Source: Flavicella marina (GTDB lineage: Bacteria; Bacteroidota; Bacteroidia; Flavobacteriales; Flavobacteriaceae). Taken from it: a stretch of 64,000 bases of DNA. The stretch covers positions 124,001 to 188,000 of the forward strand of contig NZ_VYVA01000006.1 of NCBI RefSeq assembly GCF_009193215.1. The letters run 5' to 3'. Of this stretch, positions 35,855 through 47,923 are shown one piece after another. The notes under the pieces are model-generated. The model worked only from the letters and a program-made list of their open reading frames with translations. It had not been told where the DNA came from and ran no database searches. The translations under genes and the position numbers were made by a program. Positions within the stretch are counted from its first letter, which is position 1; every line of letters begins with the position of its first letter.

Positions 35855-38035
35855 ATGAATATATATATTTGTTTTGTGGAAAAAACAACGGAACAAATCA
35901 AAATAAACACTACAAATAAATCAGGTAAGCTTTTATCAATTGTTATTGTGAATTATAGAAGTTGGAGGCATCTAGAAAAATGTTTAGATTCTATATTGGC
36001 TATTGATTCTGCAAAATTTTCGATTGAGGTAATTGTTGTTGATAATGATTTAATGACTGAAGATAGGGCTCAGTTTCAAAAACGTTTTGATTCCGTTTCT
36101 ATTGTCGGGAATACAGGTAATAACGGTTTTGCCAACGGATGTAATTATGGAGCAAATTTGGCAACTGGAGATTTTCTGATGTTTTTAAATCCTGATACTA
36201 TTGTGAATCAAGAAGCATTTGAAAAAATGTTGTTGGCAATTGAAAATAATCCGGAGTATGGAATCGTTTCTTGTACGCAATTAAACAAAAATGGTGATAA
36301 AGAAAAAGAAATACGATTTTTTCCAAATACTAAGGTTTTGTTCGGATTGTTTCGTGCTTTCTATAGAATTTTCAATAAAAAAATACTTCAAGAAAAATAT
36401 CAGGATTCAAAAGCTGTTATTTTTCCAGATTGGGTTTCAGGTTCTTTGATTTTGATTAGAAGAGATGATTTTATCACTGTTGGAGGTTGGAATGAAGATT
36501 ATTGGATGTATTTTGAGGATGTTGATTTGTGTAAAAAAGTGACAGATATCGGTAAGAAGATTGCTTTATTACGTAATGTGAATATTATACACAATCATGG
36601 AGGAGCTTCAAGGATTAATGTTAAGATCTCTGCCATGACTAGATCTCATGTGTTGATTTCACGGCATATTTATGTTTGCAATTATTTTGAAGGACCCACA
36701 AAACTCTTTACTCAATCGTTGTTGGTGCTATATGTTTTGATAAGCAAGTTTGTAGGTGGTTTGTTGGGAATGTTATTTTTCTTTTTACCTAAAATGAGAT
36801 TGCAAACAACTCTGTTGAAAAACATGATCACTTATTATATTTCTGCAACTAAAAATTCTACTTGGTTGAGTCTTTATTCTAGAAACTTTTTTAAAAACAA
36901 AGTTATTGTTGATAGCAATGAGATTAGAATCGGTTTTGACGCTAAACGAATTTACCATAACACAACAGGTTTAGGAAATTATAGTAGAGATTTGGTTTCT
37001 ATTTTGACACGTTTTTTTTCTGAGAATAAGTATTTTTTATACAATCCGAAAGAAAAAAGAATTGATCGGTTAGCGGATAAAAAGAATATTATTGAAGTGC
37101 TTCCGAATTCAAAGTTTTGGAAAAGATATTCTTCTATTTGGAGACAAGGACCTGTAATCAAACAGTTGAAAGAAGATAAAATTCAGTTGTTTCATGGTTT
37201 ATCCGGAGAGGTTCCGAGAGGACTTAAAAAAGCAAATATCAAAAGTATAGTTACGATTCATGATTTGATTTTTATAAGATATCCAAAACTATATTCGTAC
37301 ATGGATCGAAAAATTCATTTCAGAAAATTTTATTATGCAGTTCACAGTGCAGATATTGTTATTGCTATCACAGAACAAACAAAAAGAGATATTGTAAAGT
37401 TCTTAAAAGCAGATCCTTTAAAGATAAGGGTTGTTTATCAAGGTTGTCATGAGAAATTTAAAGCGTCTGTTTCTGATGTTTTTAAATTACAAGTGCGTAA
37501 ACGTTATAAGCTACCGAAAAACTTTATTTTGAATGTTGGAACTATTGAAGAAAGGAAAAACTTATTGTTAGCGGTAAAAGCAATCAGAAAACTAGATACC
37601 ACTTTGGTTGTTGTAGGGGCTAAAACAAAATACTATCAAAAAGTTTGTAACTACATCCAACGAAAAGGCATCGAACATAAAGTACTGTTTTTAGAAAACG
37701 TGGTTCTAGACGACTTAGTTGCGTTGTACCAAATGGCGGGTTTATTTGTGTACCCAAGTGTTTTTGAAGGGTTTGGAATTCCTATTATAGAGGCCCTCTA
37801 TAGCAAGACACCGGTAATTACAAGTACAGGAAGTTGTTTCTCAGAGGCAGGAGGTCCGGCTACAATTTATGTTGCTCCTGATGATTATAGGCAATTGAGA
37901 AAAAAAATATCGGAAGTGTTAACTGATAATAAGTTGCGTGATTCAATGGTCGCTGAAGGATATCGCTTTGTTCAAAAGTTTAACGATGAACAAATTGCTG
38001 AAAATATTATGAAAGTTTATAAAGAGTTGTTGTAG
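35855..38035 (+). CDS. Two-domain glycosyltransferase: GT2 fused to GT4
   Basis: A 726-residue protein with two complete transferase domains. Residues about 27-300 are a GT2 (GT-A) domain of the rhamnosyltransferase type: SIVIVNYRSW, GNNGFANGCNYGA, the DxD-like FLNPDTIV, and WMYFEDVDLCKKV. A hydrophobic stretch at about 285-320 follows. Residues about 350-726 are a GT4 (GT-B) domain with IGFDAKRIYHNTTGLGNYSR, GTIEERKN and the donor-binding YPSVFEGFGIPIIEAL. Such fusions add two sugars in turn to a surface glycan. A TATATTTG box (35864-35871) inside the 5' end, followed by GTG 35876, leaves open a shorter start. Confidence 0.88.
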   Translation: MNIYICFVEKTTEQIKINTTNKSGKLLSIVIVNYRSWRHLEKCLDSILAIDSAKFSIEVIVVDNDLMTEDRAQFQKRFDSVSIVGNTGNNGFANGCNYGANLATGDFLMFLNPDTIVNQEAFEKMLLAIENNPEYGIVSCTQLNKNGDKEKEIRFFPNTKVLFGLFRAFYRIFNKKILQEKYQDSKAVIFPDWVSGSLILIRRDDFITVGGWNEDYWMYFEDVDLCKKVTDIGKKIALLRNVNIIHNHGGASRINVKISAMTRSHVLISRHIYVCNYFEGPTKLFTQSLLVLYVLISKFVGGLLGMLFFFLPKMRLQTTLLKNMITYYISATKNSTWLSLYSRNFFKNKVIVDSNEIRIGFDAKRIYHNTTGLGNYSRDLVSILTRFFSENKYFLYNPKEKRIDRLADKKNIIEVLPNSKFWKRYSSIWRQGPVIKQLKEDKIQLFHGLSGEVPRGLKKANIKSIVTIHDLIFIRYPKLYSYMDRKIHFRKFYYAVHSADIVIAITEQTKRDIVKFLKADPLKIRVVYQGCHEKFKASVSDVFKLQVRKRYKLPKNFILNVGTIEERKNLLLAVKAIRKLDTTLVVVGAKTKYYQKVCNYIQRKGIEHKVLFLENVVLDDLVALYQMAGLFVYPSVFEGFGIPIIEALYSKTPVITSTGSCFSEAGGPATIYVAPDDYRQLRKKISEVLTDNKLRDSMVAEGYRFVQKFNDEQIAENIMKVYKELL

Positions 38036-38039
38036 TTGA

Positions 38040-39050
38040 CTAACGAGGGAGTGAAATTGGAATATTGGGTTGCCTGTCTAAAATGTATTGAATCCAGTTA
38101 CTAAAGGCGTATTTTCTTTTTATTTCATTTTGAATGATATAATCACTTGATAAAAATGATTTTAGTTTAGAAATGTTATCTCCTTTCCAAATAAAAATAT
38201 TGTTTTCGTTGTAAAAATCGTATTTTTTTATCTCTTTGTTGTTCGTTATTAATTTTTTGTCGAATTGAATGGCCTCAAAAACTCGAAAAGATAAACCATG
38301 ATGTGTACCATTTAAAAAATCAAGAATGACTTTTGATTTTTTTATATATGCTATGTTTTCAGAATAGCTAATATGGGTCGATAAATAGTTGATTTCTTCC
38401 TGCTTATATTTGTTAGTTTTATTTTTGTCGGTACAGTAAATATAATATTTGGAGTTTAGATTGAGATATCTAGTTTTGTTGATGAAATCTTCTATAATCG
38501 GCATTCTTTGCGTGATATATGACCCCATGAAATATAGATCAAAATCAAGTTTGATTTCACTAGAATCAGATTCAGAATCGAAATAAAAATTAGTAGTGGG
38601 TAAGTAGCCTTGATTGAAGTCTTTGGGGTCAAAAATAAAAAATCGATCAAAATATGGAATCATTTTATTGATGGCCGGAAAGCGATGTAAACCATCCCAA
38701 TGATATGTGATGAGAGAATTTGATTTCTCTTTTAGTTTAGAGATAATGTCTAAGGGGTAAATGTCTGCTCGAATCAATAAAGTGTATTCTACTTTCCCGT
38801 TGATGGAATTTATTTGATTGATGATATTATTTTTATACGGGGCAAATTTTAAAATGCTTTTATAATTTCTGTCTCCTAAAACTAGTTTTCTGAAAATATA
38901 TATCACGTTTTGCGTGAAAGTTTTTTTTAGTTTTTTGTGTTCTGGATAAGAGATGTTGATGACTTCAAATCCCAATATTTCTAGATTCTTTTGTATGAGA
39001 CTGTTTACTTCAAAAGATTGTGGTAAACCAATAATAATGCGAGGTTTCAT
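38040..39050 (-). CDS. Unrecognised family, paralogue 1 of 3 (possible GT-B glycosyltransferase)
   Basis: A 336-residue protein I cannot place by name. With the proteins at 40143-41156 and 41156-42172 it forms a family sharing, in order: a Rossmann-like start (RIIIGLPQSF), FRKLVLGDRNYKS, LLIRADIYP, YHWDGLHRFP, RFFIFDPKDF, TTNFYFD, HHGLSFRVFEAI, KLITNN and YDFYNENNIFIW. The late HxGLSFRxFE plus KLITNN block resembles the donor-binding end of CgeB-like GT-B enzymes, which fits the locus, but that is an inference. There is no membrane helix. It converges with the GT2-GT4 fusion, five bases away. ATG 39050 is used; a TTG precedes it. Confidence 0.6.
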   Translation of the reverse strand: MKPRIIIGLPQSFEVNSLIQKNLEILGFEVINISYPEHKKLKKTFTQNVIYIFRKLVLGDRNYKSILKFAPYKNNIINQINSINGKVEYTLLIRADIYPLDIISKLKEKSNSLITYHWDGLHRFPAINKMIPYFDRFFIFDPKDFNQGYLPTTNFYFDSESDSSEIKLDFDLYFMGSYITQRMPIIEDFINKTRYLNLNSKYYIYCTDKNKTNKYKQEEINYLSTHISYSENIAYIKKSKVILDFLNGTHHGLSFRVFEAIQFDKKLITNNKEIKKYDFYNENNIFIWKGDNISKLKSFLSSDYIIQNEIKRKYAFSNWIQYILDRQPNIPISLPR

Positions 39051-39098
39051 CAAGTTGTGTTTTGTTTAATAAAAGTAATATAATTATTTAAATATTAT

Positions 39099-39106
39099 TA
39101 AGTTTG
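39099..39106 (+). promoter_or_regulatory. -7 box before the GT4 gene at 39128
   Basis: TAAGTTTG fits TAnnTTTG, with a start site about 15 bases before the ATG. No -33 TTG at the usual distance. This gene needs its own promoter because both neighbours run the other way. Confidence 0.35.
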
Positions 39107-39127
39107 TGTGGCTAAAGAAATGATAAA

Positions 39128-40162
39128 ATGAAAAGAAAACCTACCATATGTATCGATATAGAAAGAATGAAATACAAAAATATTGGTTTGTTTACCTTTT
39201 GTAATGAGTTGGTTTTAGCTCTTAAAGATGGATTTAAATATTCATATTTTGGTACTACAACATTTAGCACAATTAAGCCTAAATGGTATCATAAATATTT
39301 AGACGTACCTGTCAAGAATATTGATATTTGGCATGCGACACATCAAGATACTAATTATTTACCGCAGAGTGATGTTCCCGTTGTTTTGACAATTCACGAC
39401 CTCAATTTTTTATATGCAGATAAATCTAAATCAAAGGTAGACAAACGTTTAAATAAAGTGCAAAGGCTGATTGATAGATCGAGTTTTATAGTGGTTATCT
39501 CAAATTATGTTTTAGAAGATGTAAAGAAATTTCTTGATTTGAAAGGTACACCGATAAAAGTGATTTATAATGGTACAAAAACACCTGAAAAAAATCTTGA
39601 GAAACAGAAGGTATTATCAGAAGAGCCTTTCCTGTTTACAATTGGTACAGTTGTTCCGAAAAAAAACTTTCATGTTTTGTTGTGCTTGTTGATTAATTCG
39701 CCATACAAACTTGTTGTTGCTGGTAATCAAAATGATAAAGATTATTTAGATTCAATTATTTCTGAAGCAACAGCACTTGGTGTTATGGATAAATTAGAGT
39801 TGGTCGGACCTGTATCTGAAAATGATAAGAATTGGTATTATGAAAATTGTCGAGCATTTTTATTTCCTTCTTTGTCTGAAGGTTTTGGATTGCCAGTAAT
39901 TGAAGCGATGAGATTTGGTAAACCCGTGTTTTGCTCGAATTTAACAAGCCTTCCAGAGATAGGAGGGGCTGAAGCTTATTATTTTACTTCTTTTGATGAA
40001 AAGCATATGCAAGATGTTTTTACTAATGGGATGAATGATTACGACAATGATTCTGATAAGAAAAATAAAATTATAGCTTGGTCTAATCAATTCACTTGGG
40101 GAAAAACAGCGCAGCACTATGAAGAAGTGTATTTATCCGTACTTAACGAGGTATGTCAATAA
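39128..40162 (+). CDS. Glycosyltransferase family 4 protein
   Basis: A 344-residue GT-B transferase. The acceptor half starts ICIDIERMKYKNIGLFTFCNE and has WHATHQDTNYLP and LTIHDLNFLY. The donor half has FTIGTVVPKKNF and the GT4 signature FPSLSEGFGLPVIEAMRFGKPV with the two glutamates that hold the nucleotide sugar. It most resembles the GT4 half of the fusion protein at 35855. It is alone on the plus strand between two members of the paralogue family, and its last 20 bases overlap the convergent paralogue 2. Confidence 0.88.
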   Translation: MKRKPTICIDIERMKYKNIGLFTFCNELVLALKDGFKYSYFGTTTFSTIKPKWYHKYLDVPVKNIDIWHATHQDTNYLPQSDVPVVLTIHDLNFLYADKSKSKVDKRLNKVQRLIDRSSFIVVISNYVLEDVKKFLDLKGTPIKVIYNGTKTPEKNLEKQKVLSEEPFLFTIGTVVPKKNFHVLLCLLINSPYKLVVAGNQNDKDYLDSIISEATALGVMDKLELVGPVSENDKNWYYENCRAFLFPSLSEGFGLPVIEAMRFGKPVFCSNLTSLPEIGGAEAYYFTSFDEKHMQDVFTNGMNDYDNDSDKKNKIIAWSNQFTWGKTAQHYEEVYLSVLNEVCQ

Positions 40163-41156
40163 CGGTGTAAGGTTTTTCATTTAAAAGATATTTAATCCAA
40201 TTCTTAAAAGAATATTTTTCCTTTACCTCTTTAGGTATTTCTTGATAAGGAAGCTTTAAAAAATCTTCGAAACCTTCTAAGCTTTCTCCATCCCAGATAA
40301 AAATATTGTTTGGATGGTAGAAATCATACTTTGAAATACTAGGGTTGTTTGTGATTAGTTTTTTTGATAACTGTAATCCTTCGAAAAACCGAAAGGAAAG
40401 TCCTTGATGTGAGTCACTTACCAAGTCAAATATTATAGCACTTCGCTTTACAAAACTGATGTTGTCATCATAAGTTTTATGTTTGTCAATATACTCAATA
40501 TTAGTATTTTCTTGAACATCCACCGAATTAGTGAAATGTAGGAGAAATTTATTATTTAGATTGAGGTGTTCGGTTTTTTCGATAAAGTTGTTAATGTATT
40601 GGACTCTTTTACCACCTGTCGAACCAATATAAAAAATATCAAATTCGTCATTCTTCGAATTTGTGTTTGAGTAATAATCAAAATAAAAATTCGTCGAAGA
40701 AAAGAAATGGTTATTTTGATGTGTGTTAAAATCTTCAGGATCGAAAATAAAAAAGCGATCAAAATATGTTATATAGTCTAATATTTGTGGAAAGCGAGCC
40801 AGTCCATCCCAGTGATATGAAATTAATTGATTGGACTTTGATTTTATTAGTTTGATTACTTTTTCAGGATAAATATCAGCTCTGATTAAAAGCGCTGCAT
40901 CAGCATTTTTTACTGATTTAAGTTTGTTGGTTATTTCGTTTTGATAGGGTTTAAATTTCAGTTTGTTTTTATAATGTTTGTCGTTTAAGAATAATTTTCT
41001 GAACGTATTGGTAATTCTCTCTCCAAAATTGCGATATTGAAAATCATGATTAGGGTAGCTTATATCAATAACTGTATAACCATGGAATTCAAGGTTCTTT
41101 TTTATCGAAGCGTATAAACTAAAAGTTTGAGGTAACCCTAGAATTATTTTTTTCAT
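40143..41156 (-). CDS. Unrecognised family, paralogue 2 of 3 (possible GT-B glycosyltransferase)
   Basis: A 337-residue protein with the same motif order as paralogue 1: IILGLPQTF, FRKLFLNDKHYKN, LLIRADIYP, YHWDGLARFP, RFFIFDPEDF, STNFYFD, HQGLSFRFFEGL, KLITNN, YDFYHPNNIFIW and the end KYSFKNWIKYLL...IDIPR. It is clearly closer to paralogue 1 than to 3 by these motifs. Its ATG shares a base with the stop codon of paralogue 3 (TAATG), so the two are translated together. It is the last gene of the long minus-strand glycan operon. Confidence 0.6.
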   Translation of the reverse strand: MKKIILGLPQTFSLYASIKKNLEFHGYTVIDISYPNHDFQYRNFGERITNTFRKLFLNDKHYKNKLKFKPYQNEITNKLKSVKNADAALLIRADIYPEKVIKLIKSKSNQLISYHWDGLARFPQILDYITYFDRFFIFDPEDFNTHQNNHFFSSTNFYFDYYSNTNSKNDEFDIFYIGSTGGKRVQYINNFIEKTEHLNLNNKFLLHFTNSVDVQENTNIEYIDKHKTYDDNISFVKRSAIIFDLVSDSHQGLSFRFFEGLQLSKKLITNNPSISKYDFYHPNNIFIWDGESLEGFEDFLKLPYQEIPKEVKEKYSFKNWIKYLLNEKPYTVIDIPR

Positions 41157-42172
41157 TAAAATAAAGTTATTGGTTGATGCGGTTCAATGTCTAATACATA
41201 GTTAGACCAATTTGTAAAGCTATATTTGTTTTTTATCGATGCTTCAATTGGCGCAAAAGGTAGTTCTAAAAACGCTTCATAACCATCTAGATTGTAGCCA
41301 TCCCAATAAAAAATATTTTGTGGGTTGTAAAAGTCATACGCTTTTACAAGCGGGTTGTTTGTTATTAATTTTTTGTTATAAAAAATAGCTTCAAATGTTC
41401 GGAATGAAAGTCCATTATGGTCATCTGTTTTAAAGTCTAAAACTATTCTAGCGTCTTTTATATGTGCAATTGTTTCGCCATAACTGATAAATTCGTCAAT
41501 ATAAGTGATTCCATTAATTAGGTATTGAGACGCAACACTTTTTTTCTGATTATAAATAAGTACGTTTAATTTTTGATTTAGCTCTTGAGATTTCTCGATA
41601 AAAGTTTTTATTTTCGGCATTCTTGACTGCAAAAAGGTACCTATAAAAAATATATCTGTGCTGCAGTTTGTATTGTTGTTTGGGTTATCATAGTCAAAAT
41701 AAAAATTTGTTAATGGTAAGAAGTTTTGGTTCTTTGTCAAATCTGATTTGTCGAACACAAAAAATCGTTGGAAATATTTTTGATAATTGTAAATTTCAGG
41801 ATATCTATCCAAACCATCCCATTGATAGCAAATGTTTAGTTTAGCAAGTTTGGTTAATTTTTCTACTACTTCTTTCGGAAACATATCAGGTCTAATAAAA
41901 AAAGTATAATCAAAATTATGTGACATTAATTCTTTTACAGTTTCAGAAGTTTGAAGGGTTTTATATTTATAATACAAGGTTGTACTTTTGTATGTTTTGT
42001 CTCCTAGGCAAGTTTTTCTGAAAAAATTAATAATCTTATCTTTTTTGTTTAGGTATTTAATTTCACCATCAATGATCAACGATGTAACTTCGAAGCCTAA
42101 AAATTCAAAGTTTTTTACAATTGATTTGTACAAGTTGAAATGATTCGGTGCAGCAAATAATATTTTTTTCAT
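41156..42172 (-). CDS. Unrecognised family, paralogue 3 of 3 (possible GT-B glycosyltransferase)
   Basis: A 338-residue member of the same family, the most divergent of the three: ILFAAPNHFNLYKSI at the start, FRKTCLGDKTYKS, FIRPDMFP in place of LIRADIYP, YQWDGLDRYP, RFFVFDKSDL, LTNFYFD, HNGLSFRTFEAI, KLITNN and YDFYNPQNIFYWDG. The invariant core across all three is therefore WDGLxRxP, RFFxFD, TNFYFD, GLSFRxFE, KLITNN and YDFY. It lies 12 bases after the TOD1/MUCI70-like gene, in the same operon. Confidence 0.6.
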   Translation of the reverse strand: MKKILFAAPNHFNLYKSIVKNFEFLGFEVTSLIIDGEIKYLNKKDKIINFFRKTCLGDKTYKSTTLYYKYKTLQTSETVKELMSHNFDYTFFIRPDMFPKEVVEKLTKLAKLNICYQWDGLDRYPEIYNYQKYFQRFFVFDKSDLTKNQNFLPLTNFYFDYDNPNNNTNCSTDIFFIGTFLQSRMPKIKTFIEKSQELNQKLNVLIYNQKKSVASQYLINGITYIDEFISYGETIAHIKDARIVLDFKTDDHNGLSFRTFEAIFYNKKLITNNPLVKAYDFYNPQNIFYWDGYNLDGYEAFLELPFAPIEASIKNKYSFTNWSNYVLDIEPHQPITLF

Positions 42173-42184
42173 TCCATTTAAAAT

Positions 42185-43135
42185 TTAAGTAGTGTGATTT
42201 TTTATCAGTGTTTTAATACTTTGTTTTTTTAGTTTTCCCTTAAATGCTGATTTAACAAAAAAATGATATTTTTTCCAGGCTATAATACTTCTATTTATTT
42301 TGTAGTTCCATATTGGAATTTTAATGATTAGGAATAAGTGTTTTAGAATATATTTTAAGTTGTACCTTATAAATACTCTTGTTTTAGAGTGCTTATTTTC
42401 AAAGGCTACCTGGCTTTTAATCTGTCTGATTTCAGATGAAAAATCTAACTTGTGATCGAACCAGTAAAACCAAGGGTTTCCCGATCTCAAATCACCTTTT
42501 AAGTATTCTAATTTTGTGAAATTTGTTTTCCAAACACAATAATTAAAGCTTAATTGATCCCTTTTACTTCTGTTTTGAACAAAACTCCACCACATATCCA
42601 TTAGTTCAATCAAGTCATTGTCATGATGCTTTCGTATCAAAACTGCGGCAAATATAAGTCCGTTATGTTGTGGATAATTTTCTGATTTAAAAAAATCTAT
42701 TTGACTTTTCATCGTTCTAGGGTCGTCTCTATAGTTTCCTAGGTGTTCTCCAATAGCGACAAGTTCATTGTATTCTTTGTATGCACAATTTCTTGGGTCT
42801 AAGTAGGTTTGATTATGGTCAAAACACAACATAGAGGCGTTGTTCAATTTAGCAAGAAGCTTTTGTCTAAAATCGCGAATGATTAAATAATTAGCGTCGA
42901 TATAAACACTTATCTCGTAATTTTTTAAGTGTTTATGAGGTAAAATTTTATAATATCTATTTGAACGAGTATTGTCTCCCGGAACGGGGGGCGAAACTTT
43001 TATGATATTCCAAGAGTTTGAAGATAGGTCTTGATCAGTATAACAAATATAGTCTATTCCTTCTATTTTGGGCTGTTCAATAAGTCCACTATAATTTCCA
43101 AATAAAGCTGTATAAACAACGATTTTTTGTTTCAT
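42185..43135 (-). CDS. TOD1/MUCI70-like (DUF616) glycosyltransferase with shared C-terminal tail
   Basis: A 316-residue protein. Residues 1-240 match the DUF616/TOD1-MUCI70 type: VVYTALFGNYSGL, YICYTDQDL, NRYYKILPH, the metal motif YIDANYLI, and RDQLSFNYCVWK. These are GT-A transferases. The last 60 residues are different: a hydrophobic LIIKIPIW, then a basic stretch and IAWKKY, fitting KxPxWx8Ix[FW]KxY. The same tail ends the next two genes upstream, whose catalytic domains are unrelated. The gap to the RgpF-like gene is 43 bases. Confidence 0.78.
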   Translation of the reverse strand: MKQKIVVYTALFGNYSGLIEQPKIEGIDYICYTDQDLSSNSWNIIKVSPPVPGDNTRSNRYYKILPHKHLKNYEISVYIDANYLIIRDFRQKLLAKLNNASMLCFDHNQTYLDPRNCAYKEYNELVAIGEHLGNYRDDPRTMKSQIDFFKSENYPQHNGLIFAAVLIRKHHDNDLIELMDMWWSFVQNRSKRDQLSFNYCVWKTNFTKLEYLKGDLRSGNPWFYWFDHKLDFSSEIRQIKSQVAFENKHSKTRVFIRYNLKYILKHLFLIIKIPIWNYKINRSIIAWKKYHFFVKSAFKGKLKKQSIKTLIKNHTT

Positions 43136-43178
43136 GATTGAGTAATATTTAAATCAATATTTTTATCAAGCGTTAAGT

Positions 43179-44156
43179 TTAATTCATTATTTCATTCAGG
43201 TTAGAAATGTAGTTTTTTATATCAGTTTTATTCCAATCAAACTCTAGACAAAAGAAAAAAATTTTTCGATATTCTTTAAAAGATATTACTTTGTTTTTGA
43301 ATTTTAAATGCCAAAGAGGAATTTTAATTAGTAAATATGGTAGAAAAATCAATTTTGAGATATAAGATAAAAGACTATGGCTTTTAACAATGATTTTGTA
43401 CTTCTTAAGATTGTCAGAAATCATAGCTAGGTCATACTTAGGATGAATTGAATGAATTACTTTCTTATATTTATGAAGGTTTTTACGATTATAGGTGTTT
43501 CTTGTAAAAAGGGTTCTCTTGATAAATGGAAAACCTCTTAGAATCATGAGTTCCCAGTCTTTTGCTGGGTCATGCAAGAATGAATTTGGTTTTTCGATAA
43601 AGTAAGTGTCATATGAAAAATTATCTTCTTCCAAAATTCGTGTTAATCCATGTTCGTATTTTAAAATGATATTACGTCTAATTTTTTCTTTTTTAATTGA
43701 TGTAATAAAGTTAGAAAACGTGTCGGATTTAAATGCGTCTTTATTTATAGAAACAAAATAACTTTGTATGTGAGGTGAGCTATCTATCGTGTTGTGAGTG
43801 AAACCCCAAAAGTCAATGTTTTTATTTTCCATTTTGTGAAACACGGCGTCTAGTTTGTAAAATGGCCCATAACATGAATCATTTGCGAGTATTAACCAAT
43901 CATAATTTTTTAGGATATCTAATTCAATAGCTTTTAGATAACTTAATTTATGTGAGCCAAAATCATATTCTCCATGAGATTTACATGTGCTAGTTAATAT
44001 AAATGGATTTATTTTTTCTAATTCAAATTCGCTTAATTCGCAATCTGCAGAAAAAATTATGTCTGAAACGTAATTAAGCTCCTTTAAATAATGTATGACA
44101 TATGTATCAATTTGGTTTTTTGGATCATAAAATGAAAAAAACGTTAATCTTTTCAT
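43179..44156 (-). CDS. RgpF-like (rhamnan synthesis F) protein with shared C-terminal tail
   Basis: A 325-residue protein. The body (residues about 1-240) has the RgpF pattern: FFSFYDPKNQIDTYVIHYL at the start, GEYDFGSHKLSYL, WLILANDSCYGPF, then IDFWGFT and IQSYFVSINKDAF. In rhamnose-glucose polymers RgpF extends or branches the chain. The last 60 residues hold the tail LLIKIPLW ... ISFKEY with the KxPxWx8Ix[FW]KxY spacing. ATG and the stop of the upstream gene overlap as ATGA, so translation is coupled. Confidence 0.75.
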   Translation of the reverse strand: MKRLTFFSFYDPKNQIDTYVIHYLKELNYVSDIIFSADCELSEFELEKINPFILTSTCKSHGEYDFGSHKLSYLKAIELDILKNYDWLILANDSCYGPFYKLDAVFHKMENKNIDFWGFTHNTIDSSPHIQSYFVSINKDAFKSDTFSNFITSIKKEKIRRNIILKYEHGLTRILEEDNFSYDTYFIEKPNSFLHDPAKDWELMILRGFPFIKRTLFTRNTYNRKNLHKYKKVIHSIHPKYDLAMISDNLKKYKIIVKSHSLLSYISKLIFLPYLLIKIPLWHLKFKNKVISFKEYRKIFFFCLEFDWNKTDIKNYISNLNEIMN

Positions 44157-45274
44157 TGTTTTTTGTTTTTGTCAAATTGGCTAATAAAATCTTTGATTTC
44201 ATGGATGTCTAATTTGATATTTGAATTATAACATTTTAATATTATCTGTAGGTATTCTTTGAATGTAATCGTTCTTCTGTTGAAACGATTAAACCAAAAG
44301 GGGCCTTTTACTATTAAGTATAAAAGATTTAGTGTAGATAAGAAAAAATCATCAATCTTAAGTTTCAGATGTCTAAGAGATCTAAAATTTTGTATTTCTT
44401 CGGCTAGTTCAAAATATTTTACTATTTGAAGGTCAATGTTTAAATTCTCCAATGCGTATTCCCGGAGGAACTCCCCGTCTTTAGCATTGTATTGTAGAAA
44501 TTCGTTTTCGAGTTCGTCTGAATTGAATTTTTTCTTAGAAAATCGACCGCTACAATTATTTATTATAAAATTGGAAATGTTTTTTTCTGTTACATAACCA
44601 TCTGCAAATGACTCTGAGTATTCTCTGTTATCAAATATAACAACAGGTCTACCACAAGCCATGGCTTCATATGCTGATCTACCTAATCCTATTACTAAAT
44701 CAACTTTATTGATTATTTGTTCAACATTCCAAGTAGCATTTATATGCTTGTTTAAAATATGCAGTTGTATGCCCATTTTCTCACATGCTGTACGAATCAT
44801 TTTATTTGCGCTCTCAGATTGAGATAGACTTAGAATATTTTTTAAAGAAGAGTTTATGGAGTGATTAGAAAAAAAACGATTACAATCGATACCATTTAAA
44901 ATTAATTTGCTTTTGAACCCTTTATTAGTCAGATGATCCATTACTTCTTGTGATATTGCTACGTGTCTATCAGCATATTTTGATGGCTGCTCAGATTTAG
45001 GAAAAATACCATGACAGGTCTGAATTATTTTTCCTTTTGAATACAAATAGTTAACACAGGTATTATGATTTGCAAAAATAACGTCGTATTTCTTTTTGCT
45101 CATAAATCTTACATTCAAATCTTTTTCAATTTTCGTAGAAGTAATCCCTTTGAAAAACGTAAAATATTCAACGTTATATCCTTTTTCAATAAGTTTTGAA
45201 ATTAAGGTATAGGTAAATGTTTCAGACCCACCTATCTTCTGTAAATGATTATTAGCGACTAATATAGAAGGCAT
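44153..45274 (-). CDS. Glycosyltransferase family 4 protein with shared C-terminal tail
   Basis: A 373-residue GT-B enzyme. The start has HLQKIGGSETFTYTLISKL, the glycine loop of the acceptor half, then FANHNTCVNYLY and TCHGIFP. The donor end has GLGRSAYEAMACGRPVVIFD with the conserved glutamate. After about residue 310 comes the extra tail: a hydrophobic LLYLIVKGPFW, a basic segment and ITFKEY, as in the two downstream genes. ATG 45274 overlaps the stop of the upstream gene (TGATG). A TTG before it is not needed. Confidence 0.82.
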   Translation of the reverse strand: MPSILVANNHLQKIGGSETFTYTLISKLIEKGYNVEYFTFFKGITSTKIEKDLNVRFMSKKKYDVIFANHNTCVNYLYSKGKIIQTCHGIFPKSEQPSKYADRHVAISQEVMDHLTNKGFKSKLILNGIDCNRFFSNHSINSSLKNILSLSQSESANKMIRTACEKMGIQLHILNKHINATWNVEQIINKVDLVIGLGRSAYEAMACGRPVVIFDNREYSESFADGYVTEKNISNFIINNCSGRFSKKKFNSDELENEFLQYNAKDGEFLREYALENLNIDLQIVKYFELAEEIQNFRSLRHLKLKIDDFFLSTLNLLYLIVKGPFWFNRFNRRTITFKEYLQIILKCYNSNIKLDIHEIKDFISQFDKNKKQ

Positions 45275-46068
45275 CAAATAGGAATATTAAATTTATTTTT
45301 CACCTTTTTTATTTTTACAAGATTTTTATAATTACTCGGTGGGTAAACAGGGTTACCTTCCTTCCAATTATTAAAATAATCAACATAAAATTCTATGTTG
45401 TTGTTTTTGTAGACTCCATTTGCGCTAGAGTTAGTTAATTTTGAAGAGATGTTTTTTCGAACCAAGGTCATATGGTGCATTTGAATAACTTTTCTATCAA
45501 ATAAAATGAACTTATTACCTCTGACTCTGCGTGTGGGGTCAACTTTTACTGGATAGTTAATATTATATTTGAATTTTTTGAAACGTTTAATTTTAAAAAT
45601 AAAAGATACGTAATATTCTGGTTGATTTTGGTAAATCATTTCATAAATTGGTTTTTTGAAATAATTTGTTAAACGTACAGCGGTTATATCGTATTTATTT
45701 TTTGAAATTATGGTTTTAGCTTCTTGCAATTGTTTTACATCATAGAATTCATCAGAATCCATTGATAGAAAATGAGTGCATTTGTTTTTTTTGGCAATTT
45801 TTAGACCAATGTTTCGTTTTTTCGTTTCATTAAAATGTTCTGTTTTTGTTAGGTCTGGTGTATATTCGAATAGTTGGTCAATTAATTTTTCTTCTACAAG
45901 TCTATCAAGTATTGGTAACAAATACTCAGAGCAATTTTGCCCCTTATTTGAAATTTTTTGGAAAACGACATTTATATGATTTGTTTCCTCTCTGATAGAT
46001 TTTATAGAAGCTTCCAATAATTCTTCAGTGTCAAATAAATTATAGGAAACACCTAGTTTCATCTTCAT
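45274..46068 (-). CDS. Glycosyltransferase family 2-like protein
   Basis: A 264-residue GT-A type protein. It starts LGVSYNLFDTEELLEASIKSI, then HFLSMDSDEFYD with a DxD metal motif in the second third. An HHM motif (IQMHHMTLVRK) sits where GT-A enzymes often have a metal-binding histidine. Arg- and Lys-rich stretches suggest contact with phosphate or membrane surface. It lacks the shared C-terminal tail of the next three genes. It is 22 bases after the ABC exporter and coupled to the next gene. Either of two ATGs (46068 or 46062) could be the start. Confidence 0.7.
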   Translation of the reverse strand: MKMKLGVSYNLFDTEELLEASIKSIREETNHINVVFQKISNKGQNCSEYLLPILDRLVEEKLIDQLFEYTPDLTKTEHFNETKKRNIGLKIAKKNKCTHFLSMDSDEFYDVKQLQEAKTIISKNKYDITAVRLTNYFKKPIYEMIYQNQPEYYVSFIFKIKRFKKFKYNINYPVKVDPTRRVRGNKFILFDRKVIQMHHMTLVRKNISSKLTNSSANGVYKNNNIEFYVDYFNNWKEGNPVYPPSNYKNLVKIKKVKNKFNIPI

Positions 46069-46090: not shown

Positions 46091-47923
46091 TTACCCCTCT
46101 AACTGTTGTAAGTTCACCAAATTCGTATAGGTTCCGTTTAAGGCTAACAGCTCATCGTGAGTTCCTTGTTCAACAGCTTTTCCTTTTTTCATAACTACAA
46201 TCAAATCTGCATTTTGAATTGTCGAGAGTCTATGAGCAATTACCAATGAAGTTCTGTTTTTCATCATGTTTTCGATGGCATCTTGAACTAGTTTCTCTGA
46301 TTCTGTATCCAAAGCAGAAGTAGCTTCATCTAAAATCATGATAGGTGGGTTTTTCATTACTGCTCTTGCGATAGCAATACGCTGTTTTTGTCCCCCAGAA
46401 AGCATACCACCACCATCACCAACAGGACTGTTATACTGTTCAGGTAAATCCATGATAAAGTCATGCGCATTCGCAATTTTCGCTGCTTCGACAATTTTTT
46501 CATGTGTTGGGTTTTCTATACCGAGTGATATGTTATTTGCAATTGTGTCGTTGAATAAAATAGAGTCTTGTGTTACAATACCCATTTGATCTCTTAAAGA
46601 AGTTGTTGTGACATCTTTGATGTTGATTCCATCGATCGTAATTTTACCTTCAGTAACATCCCAAAAGCGAGTGATTAGGTTGGCTAAAGTAGATTTACCA
46701 CTCCCAGATTGACCAACCAATGCTATTTTTTTTCCTTTGGGCACTGCTAATGAAAAATTTTCTAAGACATATTCCTTGTCGTATTTGAAAGAAATATTTT
46801 CGAATTTCACTTCTTTATTGAACCCTTTTAAGTCTTCACTTCCTTCTGAGTCTTTTAATGGGTTATCAGTATCGAGAATTTCAATAACCCTTTCTGCTGC
46901 AGAGTTTCCAATTTTTACAGCATTGCTGGCACTCGATATGGCTTTTGCCGGTGTTAATATGTTATAGGCAAGTCCCATAAAAGCAATGAAAGTACCAGCT
47001 TTTAGAGATTCGTCAATCAAAACCATTCTACCTCCAAACCAAAGTAGAGATGCGATAGTTGCGATGCCTAAGAATTCACTCATCGGAGATGCCATAGAAT
47101 TTCTCTGTGCTAATTGGTTACTAAGGGTTTTGATTCTTTGATTAAAATCTTCATATTTTTTTCCAAAGAATTTTTCCGAGTTAAAGGCTTTAATAACACG
47201 CAACCCAGTTAGAGTTTCTTCAATAATACTCAGCATGTTACCAGATTCTTTAAATAATGTAGCAGATTGACTTTTGATTTTTTTGCTAATTATAGAAATG
47301 ATCCATCCAGAAACAGGAATGAATGTAAAAACAAAAATGGAGAGCTCAACACTTAAGTTCAACATAAAGATTAAGGTAAAAATGATATTCAGAGGCTCTC
47401 GGATAATAACAATTGAAAGGTTCAAAAAAGTTTCGTTTATCGTACCTAAATCACCGGTAGCTCTTGCTATAATATCACCTTTTCTTTTAGTTGAGAAAAA
47501 CGAAATAGGTAAGCTGATTATTTTTTGATAGATTTCATTTCTAAGATCTTTTAATACATTATTCTTTAAAAACACCATGAAAAGACCGGCGAAATAACCA
47601 AAAATATTTTTCAAAAAGAAAACGACAATAACACTAAGAACCATATAAGTGAGAGTGCTTTCTGGTCCGAAATCAGCTGTGTTTTTCGTTATAAAATAAT
47701 TTAGGGATTTTTCTAGAAACTCTTTGTTCAAACTTTCAGAGCCTAAAAAATCAGGTTTTACATATATTTTCTCTGTGTCTCCAAATAATACGTTCAACAT
47801 CGGTATTAGTGTTAAGAATGAAAGTGCGGAAAAAAGAGCATACATTACATTCAAAAAAATACTGGTGATACCTATCCATTTGTATGGAATTGCATAGGCA
47901 AGAAAACGTTTGAAATATTTCAT
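46091..47923 (-). CDS. MsbA-like ABC transporter, fused permease and ATPase
   Basis: A 610-residue half-transporter working as a homodimer. About six membrane helices fill residues 15-320, followed by the ATPase with Walker A GQSGSGKST, signature LSGGQKQRIAIARA, Walker B PIMILDEATSALD and the switch histidine in VIAHRLSTI. It matches lipid A/LPS and lipid-linked exporters of the MsbA type. As the head of the glycan operon it probably flips the lipid-linked core or saccharide made by the enzymes encoded behind it. A multidrug exporter is the other option. Confidence 0.88.
   Translation of the reverse strand: MKYFKRFLAYAIPYKWIGITSIFLNVMYALFSALSFLTLIPMLNVLFGDTEKIYVKPDFLGSESLNKEFLEKSLNYFITKNTADFGPESTLTYMVLSVIVVFFLKNIFGYFAGLFMVFLKNNVLKDLRNEIYQKIISLPISFFSTKRKGDIIARATGDLGTINETFLNLSIVIIREPLNIIFTLIFMLNLSVELSIFVFTFIPVSGWIISIISKKIKSQSATLFKESGNMLSIIEETLTGLRVIKAFNSEKFFGKKYEDFNQRIKTLSNQLAQRNSMASPMSEFLGIATIASLLWFGGRMVLIDESLKAGTFIAFMGLAYNILTPAKAISSASNAVKIGNSAAERVIEILDTDNPLKDSEGSEDLKGFNKEVKFENISFKYDKEYVLENFSLAVPKGKKIALVGQSGSGKSTLANLITRFWDVTEGKITIDGINIKDVTTTSLRDQMGIVTQDSILFNDTIANNISLGIENPTHEKIVEAAKIANAHDFIMDLPEQYNSPVGDGGGMLSGGQKQRIAIARAVMKNPPIMILDEATSALDTESEKLVQDAIENMMKNRTSLVIAHRLSTIQNADLIVVMKKGKAVEQGTHDELLALNGTYTNLVNLQQLEG

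Follow-up and report, generated by a model that had tools for sequence, protein, structure and literature searches.

Three consecutive glycosyltransferases on the reverse strand of the 64,000-nucleotide stretch analysed here (the window) carry homologous C-termini of about 60 residues, as judged by pairwise alignment and profiles, and it is about an even bet that a single small accessory domain was acquired, in three copies, by consecutive enzymes of an LPS-type operon. The first enzyme, P1 (42185..43135, 316 aa), is a TOD1/MUCI70-like glycosyltransferase of GT-A type (Pfam TOD1_MUCI70, PF04765, E 3.6e-7); the second, P2 (43179..44156, 325 aa), is RgpF-like (RgpF, PF05045, E 2.5e-31); the third, P3 (44153..45277, up to 374 aa with the TTG start of the ORF list), is a GT4-type GT-B enzyme (Glyco_transf_4, PF13439, E 1.8e-9) whose gene overlaps that of P2 by 4 bases. 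The tails comprise residues 257-316 of P1 (42188..42367, net charge +15), 265-325 of P2 (43182..43364, net charge +5), and 310-374 of P3 (44156..44350, net charge +5), all on the reverse strand.

A preliminary description of this DNA had proposed that the three neighbouring genes end in the same tail with an invariant core, K-x-P-x-W-x8-I-x-[FW]-K-x-Y, and both points were confirmed. In a six-frame translation of the window the pattern matches exactly three times, as LIIKIPIW-x8-IAWKKY in P1 (42266..42330), LLIKIPLW-x8-ISFKEY in P2 (43269..43333), and LIVKGPFW-x8-ITFKEY in P3 (44252..44316), again on the reverse strand; the spacing between W and I is exactly eight in 3/3, and a relaxed form of the motif found no extra matches in the same translation. 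The DNA version of the motif likewise gives 3 matches in the window vs none in 100 shuffles. The three tail pairs gave alignment scores of 80, 67, and 86, where shuffles averaged 27-30 (SD 5-6), and for each of the three pairs not one of 5000 composition-preserving shuffles reached the observed score. Leave-one-out HMMs, each profile built from two tails, recovered the third with E values of 4.7e-9, 1.3e-9, and 2.8e-6. Twelve alignment columns are invariant in the three tails (L, L, L, K, P, W, I, K, Y, I, K, and I), including the IKxxI of the later helical segment, which had been noticed before and does belong to the shared region. The earlier estimate of about 50 residues was somewhat short, as the homology extends to the very C-terminus. 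Only three copies of the tail are present in the whole genome, on P1, P2, and P3. The tail has no Pfam match above cut-off, in agreement with the prior statement that no named domain fits. An EF-hand pair (PF13499) was suggested on the P3 tail alone at 17 bits, against a cut-off of 30, and the best hits of the tail profile among PDB sequences were Centrin-2 and flavodoxin (best E 0.87); both candidates were rejected.

The catalytic parts tell a different story from the tails. Their pair scores of 46, 28, and 33 compare with shuffle means of 35-38 and are at most barely above shuffles, the highest being P1 vs P2 (46 vs a mean of 37, SD 6), which bears out the claim that the catalytic domains are not homologous. 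Four P1 homologues from genomes of the same family, 59, 58, 52, and 46% identical and 250-270 aa long, end where the tail begins. Positional counterparts of this locus are found at three of the loci with such homologues, since cca lies beside the P1 homologue in L112, L114, and L115, and in L114 and L115 an msbA-like gene adjoins as well. P3 homologues that are 60, 52, and 48% identical have different C-terminal ends. For P2 the closest relatives found are RgpF proteins encoded on Brachyspira plasmids; their identity is about 39% as far as residue 251, after which the ends differ, and a TOD1-like protein near such an RgpF gene matches only up to residue 243 and is without the tail. Because relatives of P1, P2, and P3 lack it, the tail is an exchangeable unit outside the catalytic folds. 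The detachability claimed earlier is thus seen in homologues that are 46-60% identical in the catalytic part, and the close P1 and P3 homologues without the tail answer in the negative the question whether the aligned residues are part of the catalytic fold. As a separate observation, one B. hyodysenteriae plasmid (L087, 507-2545) has two adjacent RgpF proteins beside a TOD1-like protein, so that the families of P2 and P1 are paired there too.

The four tail-less P1 orthologues stop at the junction with a short basic stretch, namely KVFKVKLKRFFGFE, KMFKIKFKKFFKSKSN, KYKIKRFFGIKKHP, and KYKIKRFLGIKKHP, with net charges of +5 to +10 (examples of the basic ends are KVKLKRFFGFE and KIKFKKFFKSKSN), and the P3 homologues finish in other basic tails of net charge +9 to +13. 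From these ends it appears that the junction position already serves as the site of a basic, membrane-like end in homologues. Another C-terminal extension on a TOD1-like catalytic domain was seen in homologues from another family of the phylum (L099, L100, L101, and L102), where the end is basic and has S-x-x-W-[RK] ahead of a helix rich in lysine.

Next to P1-P3 lie further genes of the same strand and direction. The run begins with an MsbA-like ABC transporter (46091..47923; TIGR02203, 511 bits against a cut-off of 602) and continues with a GT2-like protein, P4 (45274..46068; weak PF00535 match, below cut-off), which overlaps P3 by 4 bases and belongs to the same operon, then P3, P2, P1, and two WaaS/CpsH-family glycosyltransferases (41156..42172 and 40143..41156, both NF053598), with overlaps or gaps of no more than 43 bases throughout; neither P4 nor the WaaS/CpsH enzymes have the tail. 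We infer from the consecutive order of P3, P2, and P1 that it fits successive steps on one acceptor. The glycosyltransferase cluster (38040-46068) is 28.9% G+C vs 33.2% for the window, which fits a foreign origin of the cluster without proving it, and few genomes of the phylum sample have relatives of RgpF (3 of 394 besides this one). Three WaaS/CpsH-type paralogues occur in this one cluster (38040-39053, 40143-41156, and 41156-42172; the two tested match NF053598), and an opposite-strand GT4 gene (39128-40162) sits between two of them, overlapping one end by 20 bases. A 726-residue protein encoded at 35855-38035 joins a GT2 domain to a GT4 domain, and the GT4 half shares about 61% identity with proteins that stand alone at the same locus of relatives (L114 and L115).

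We examined whether tail sharing of this kind is common in comparable loci. Sixty regions around cca from genus and family genomes and 10 around P1 or P3 homologues were collected, and the last 70 residues were compared for all gene pairs of each region (9,436 pairs in 71 loci including the window). The pairs of this window stand out and are the only ones to behave so, and the test yielded no further tail members in the 70 other loci. Other high scorers with weak similarity in the body of the protein were mostly GT-B pairs with a common C-terminal fold (L114, L152, and L158), and a low-scoring L136 pair was read as chance. Since the window pairs stand out and the others are mostly explained by the common GT-B C-terminal domain, tail sharing within such loci is unusual.

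Beyond these loci, the tail profile had no match above chance in 299 family and 395 phylum genomes (overlapping samples, with a share of the candidates scored per genome); the best foreign matches, of about 20 bits, mostly fell in short frames or across stop codons and were taken as chance. The tail is likewise absent from the five other genomes of the genus that were included. When the motif pattern was run against 84,980 species genomes, 36 matches were returned, with 0 in glycosyltransferases, the stretches being out of frame, interrupted, or unrelated; the same is true of 3 stretches matching the DNA motif pattern in viral contigs, and a separate related-locus search of genome contigs gave 293 pattern matches of which 0 were confirmed. 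The pattern detects only tails that keep the motif, and the homologue test, which is independent of the pattern, points in the same direction. No hits were obtained for the tails against plasmids (tblastn, E up to 1) or for P3 against phages. The sole C-terminal pattern match among the species genomes is in a Geosporobacter GerA-type germination protein (L063, 1362-2984, reverse strand), whose C-terminus FLIRAPLWLMKSKPKTVTWKSY resembles the tails in containing the whole motif pattern and lies just after a membrane segment; however, this is an unrelated protein in a different setting. As a relative of the tail it was rejected at 16.8 bits in favour of chance or convergence, possibly convergence on a membrane-exit sequence. 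The expectation of many profile matches on diverse Bacteroidota glycosyltransferases was not borne out, with none in the 299 and 395 genomes, the 84,980-genome motif scan, or the 70 loci. The tail seems to be confined to this genome, or else to some lineage outside the sample.

The three copies do not look young. Codon-aligned identity of the tails is 0.53 at first positions, 0.60-0.65 at second positions, and 0.28-0.35 at third positions. Saturated third positions, which retain no sign of recent copying, together with conserved second positions show that the copies are old and selected as protein. That such old copies are nevertheless absent elsewhere suggests either that they came in from a lineage not yet sampled or that they diverged fast in the present one.

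The tails are basic with Trp/aromatic and hydrophobic content. The maximum 19-residue Kyte-Doolittle mean of the tails is 0.95-1.39, below the 1.6 usual for a transmembrane helix, so that a transmembrane anchor was rejected, the hydrophobic lead-in being too weak to span the bilayer. When the P2 tail was modelled on the three-row alignment, the prediction had helices at residues 2-14, 29-42, and 46-54 and the K-x-P-x-W turn, at a pLDDT of 64 that falls below 50 in residues 8-21, through the motif; it has no Foldseek match. A full-length P2 model from three rows reached a pLDDT of 41 and was left out.

We propose, with a probability of roughly 0.5, that the tail acts as a small helical cap, basic in charge, by which successive enzymes are seated at the inner membrane next to a single lipid-linked acceptor. 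In this low-confidence model a hydrophobic-rich first helix would be followed by the K-x-P-x-W turn and two more helices, and the tail would lie flat on the inner leaflet via the hydrophobic helix, the Trp/aromatic residues, and the lysines. Each active site would thereby come to lie next to one shared acceptor in the membrane. This acceptor is probably either lipid A-core or a different lipid-linked glycan, and its export would fall to the MsbA-like transporter. A need met by short basic ends in the tail-less P1 orthologues would be met here by a larger unit. Membrane seating is made plausible by the charge and the aromatic and hydrophobic content of the tail, by the msbA-led operon, and by the basic ends of the tail-less orthologues. 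Against it, 12 invariant residues in register are more than a nonspecific anchor would call for and would be in keeping with a binding surface, and the tail-less orthologues presumably reach the same membrane without a tail. The modest hydrophobic moments of the P2 tail, the low pLDDT of its model, the lack of a structure match, and the MsbA-like score below the curated cut-off also count against seating.

C-terminal appendages of membrane-associated glycosyltransferases are a known kind. TagA, of the WecB/TagA/CpsF family (GT26), has a three-helix C-terminal appendage that tethers the enzyme to the membrane (PMC6493773). The tail resembles this unit in being small and C-terminal and, in the low-confidence prediction, in having about three helices; in the membrane-associated TagA the unit has exposed non-polar residues (PMC6493773). 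The TagA appendage is confined to one enzyme family and conserved throughout, whereas the tail occurs on three unrelated families of one operon and is missing from relatives. In KpsC the C-terminal membrane-directed segment is an amphipathic helix whose removal leaves an active soluble enzyme (PMC10148158), as would be expected here if the tail is dispensable for chemistry. The KpsC element is a single tethered helix in one family, present in all identified KpsC enzymes, in contrast to the ~60 residues with conserved K-x-P-x-W and W-x8-I described here. The ruler helix of PglH, an amphipathic membrane helix inside the GT-B fold (PMC5792488), can be likened to the proposed role of the tail in that a basic-hydrophobic helix holds the enzyme at the membrane, close to an acceptor that is lipid-linked (PMC5792488); it lies within the N-terminal catalytic domain, whereas the tail is separate and C-terminal. 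No characterised appendage related by sequence was found in Pfam or among PDB sequences, and TagA and KpsC are set beside the tail by description. What is unusual in the present case is one appendage on three unrelated families, and we found no literature precedent for one tail on unrelated glycosyltransferases.

The main alternative, possible though on balance doubtful, is docking: a protein partner bound by all three tails (the MsbA-like transporter, a further glycosyltransferase, or a scaffold) would bring the enzymes into one assembly, with the conserved K, P, W, I, K, Y, and IKxxI as contact surface. Specific invariant residues in fixed register are what docking would call for, as are conserved second codon positions beside saturated third ones; moreover, the tail is restricted to three consecutive genes of one operon and is found on no other gene in the genome, and the 4-base overlaps suggest co-translation. 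However, four other genes of the run (msbA-like, GT2, and two WaaS) are without the tail, and a membrane would be at least as good a match for the strong basic charge and the aromatic residues. The fuller version, which is rather unlikely, is an operon-specific docking domain on a common partner: one homologous module would join three glycosyltransferases that differ in fold into a complex for glycan building, in a lineage that is unsampled elsewhere. It is improbable that the tail instead folds back over the active site with its basic residues binding a phosphate or a Kdo-like group on the acceptor that the enzymes share. Lys residues are conserved, the operon order makes it probable that the three enzymes act consecutively on the same growing acceptor, and the TagA appendage does supply an arginine (PMC6493773); but a single tail would then need to suit the dissimilar active-site geometries of GT-A-, RgpF-, and GT-B-type enzymes, and homologues work without it. 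Convergence of basic Ile/Phe/Lys-rich C-termini, or recombination-spread copies kept without function, would find some room in an AT-rich locus (28.9% G+C vs 33% for the window) where homologues commonly have basic tails at the junction, but is very improbable given 0/5000 shuffles, leave-one-out E values of 3e-6 to 1e-9, the fixed W-I spacing, purifying selection on the protein (third positions 0.28-0.35, second 0.60-0.65), and the fact that only these pairs stand out among 9,436 in 71 loci.

Little is understood of how the successive glycosyltransferases of a surface glycan are brought to a single lipid-linked acceptor. A tail common to three unrelated enzymes, together with natural tail-less orthologues at the same chromosomal locus of relatives, provides a ready-made comparison. 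If either membrane seating or docking is true, other glycosyltransferases could be positioned by means of the tail, which would serve as a portable tag.
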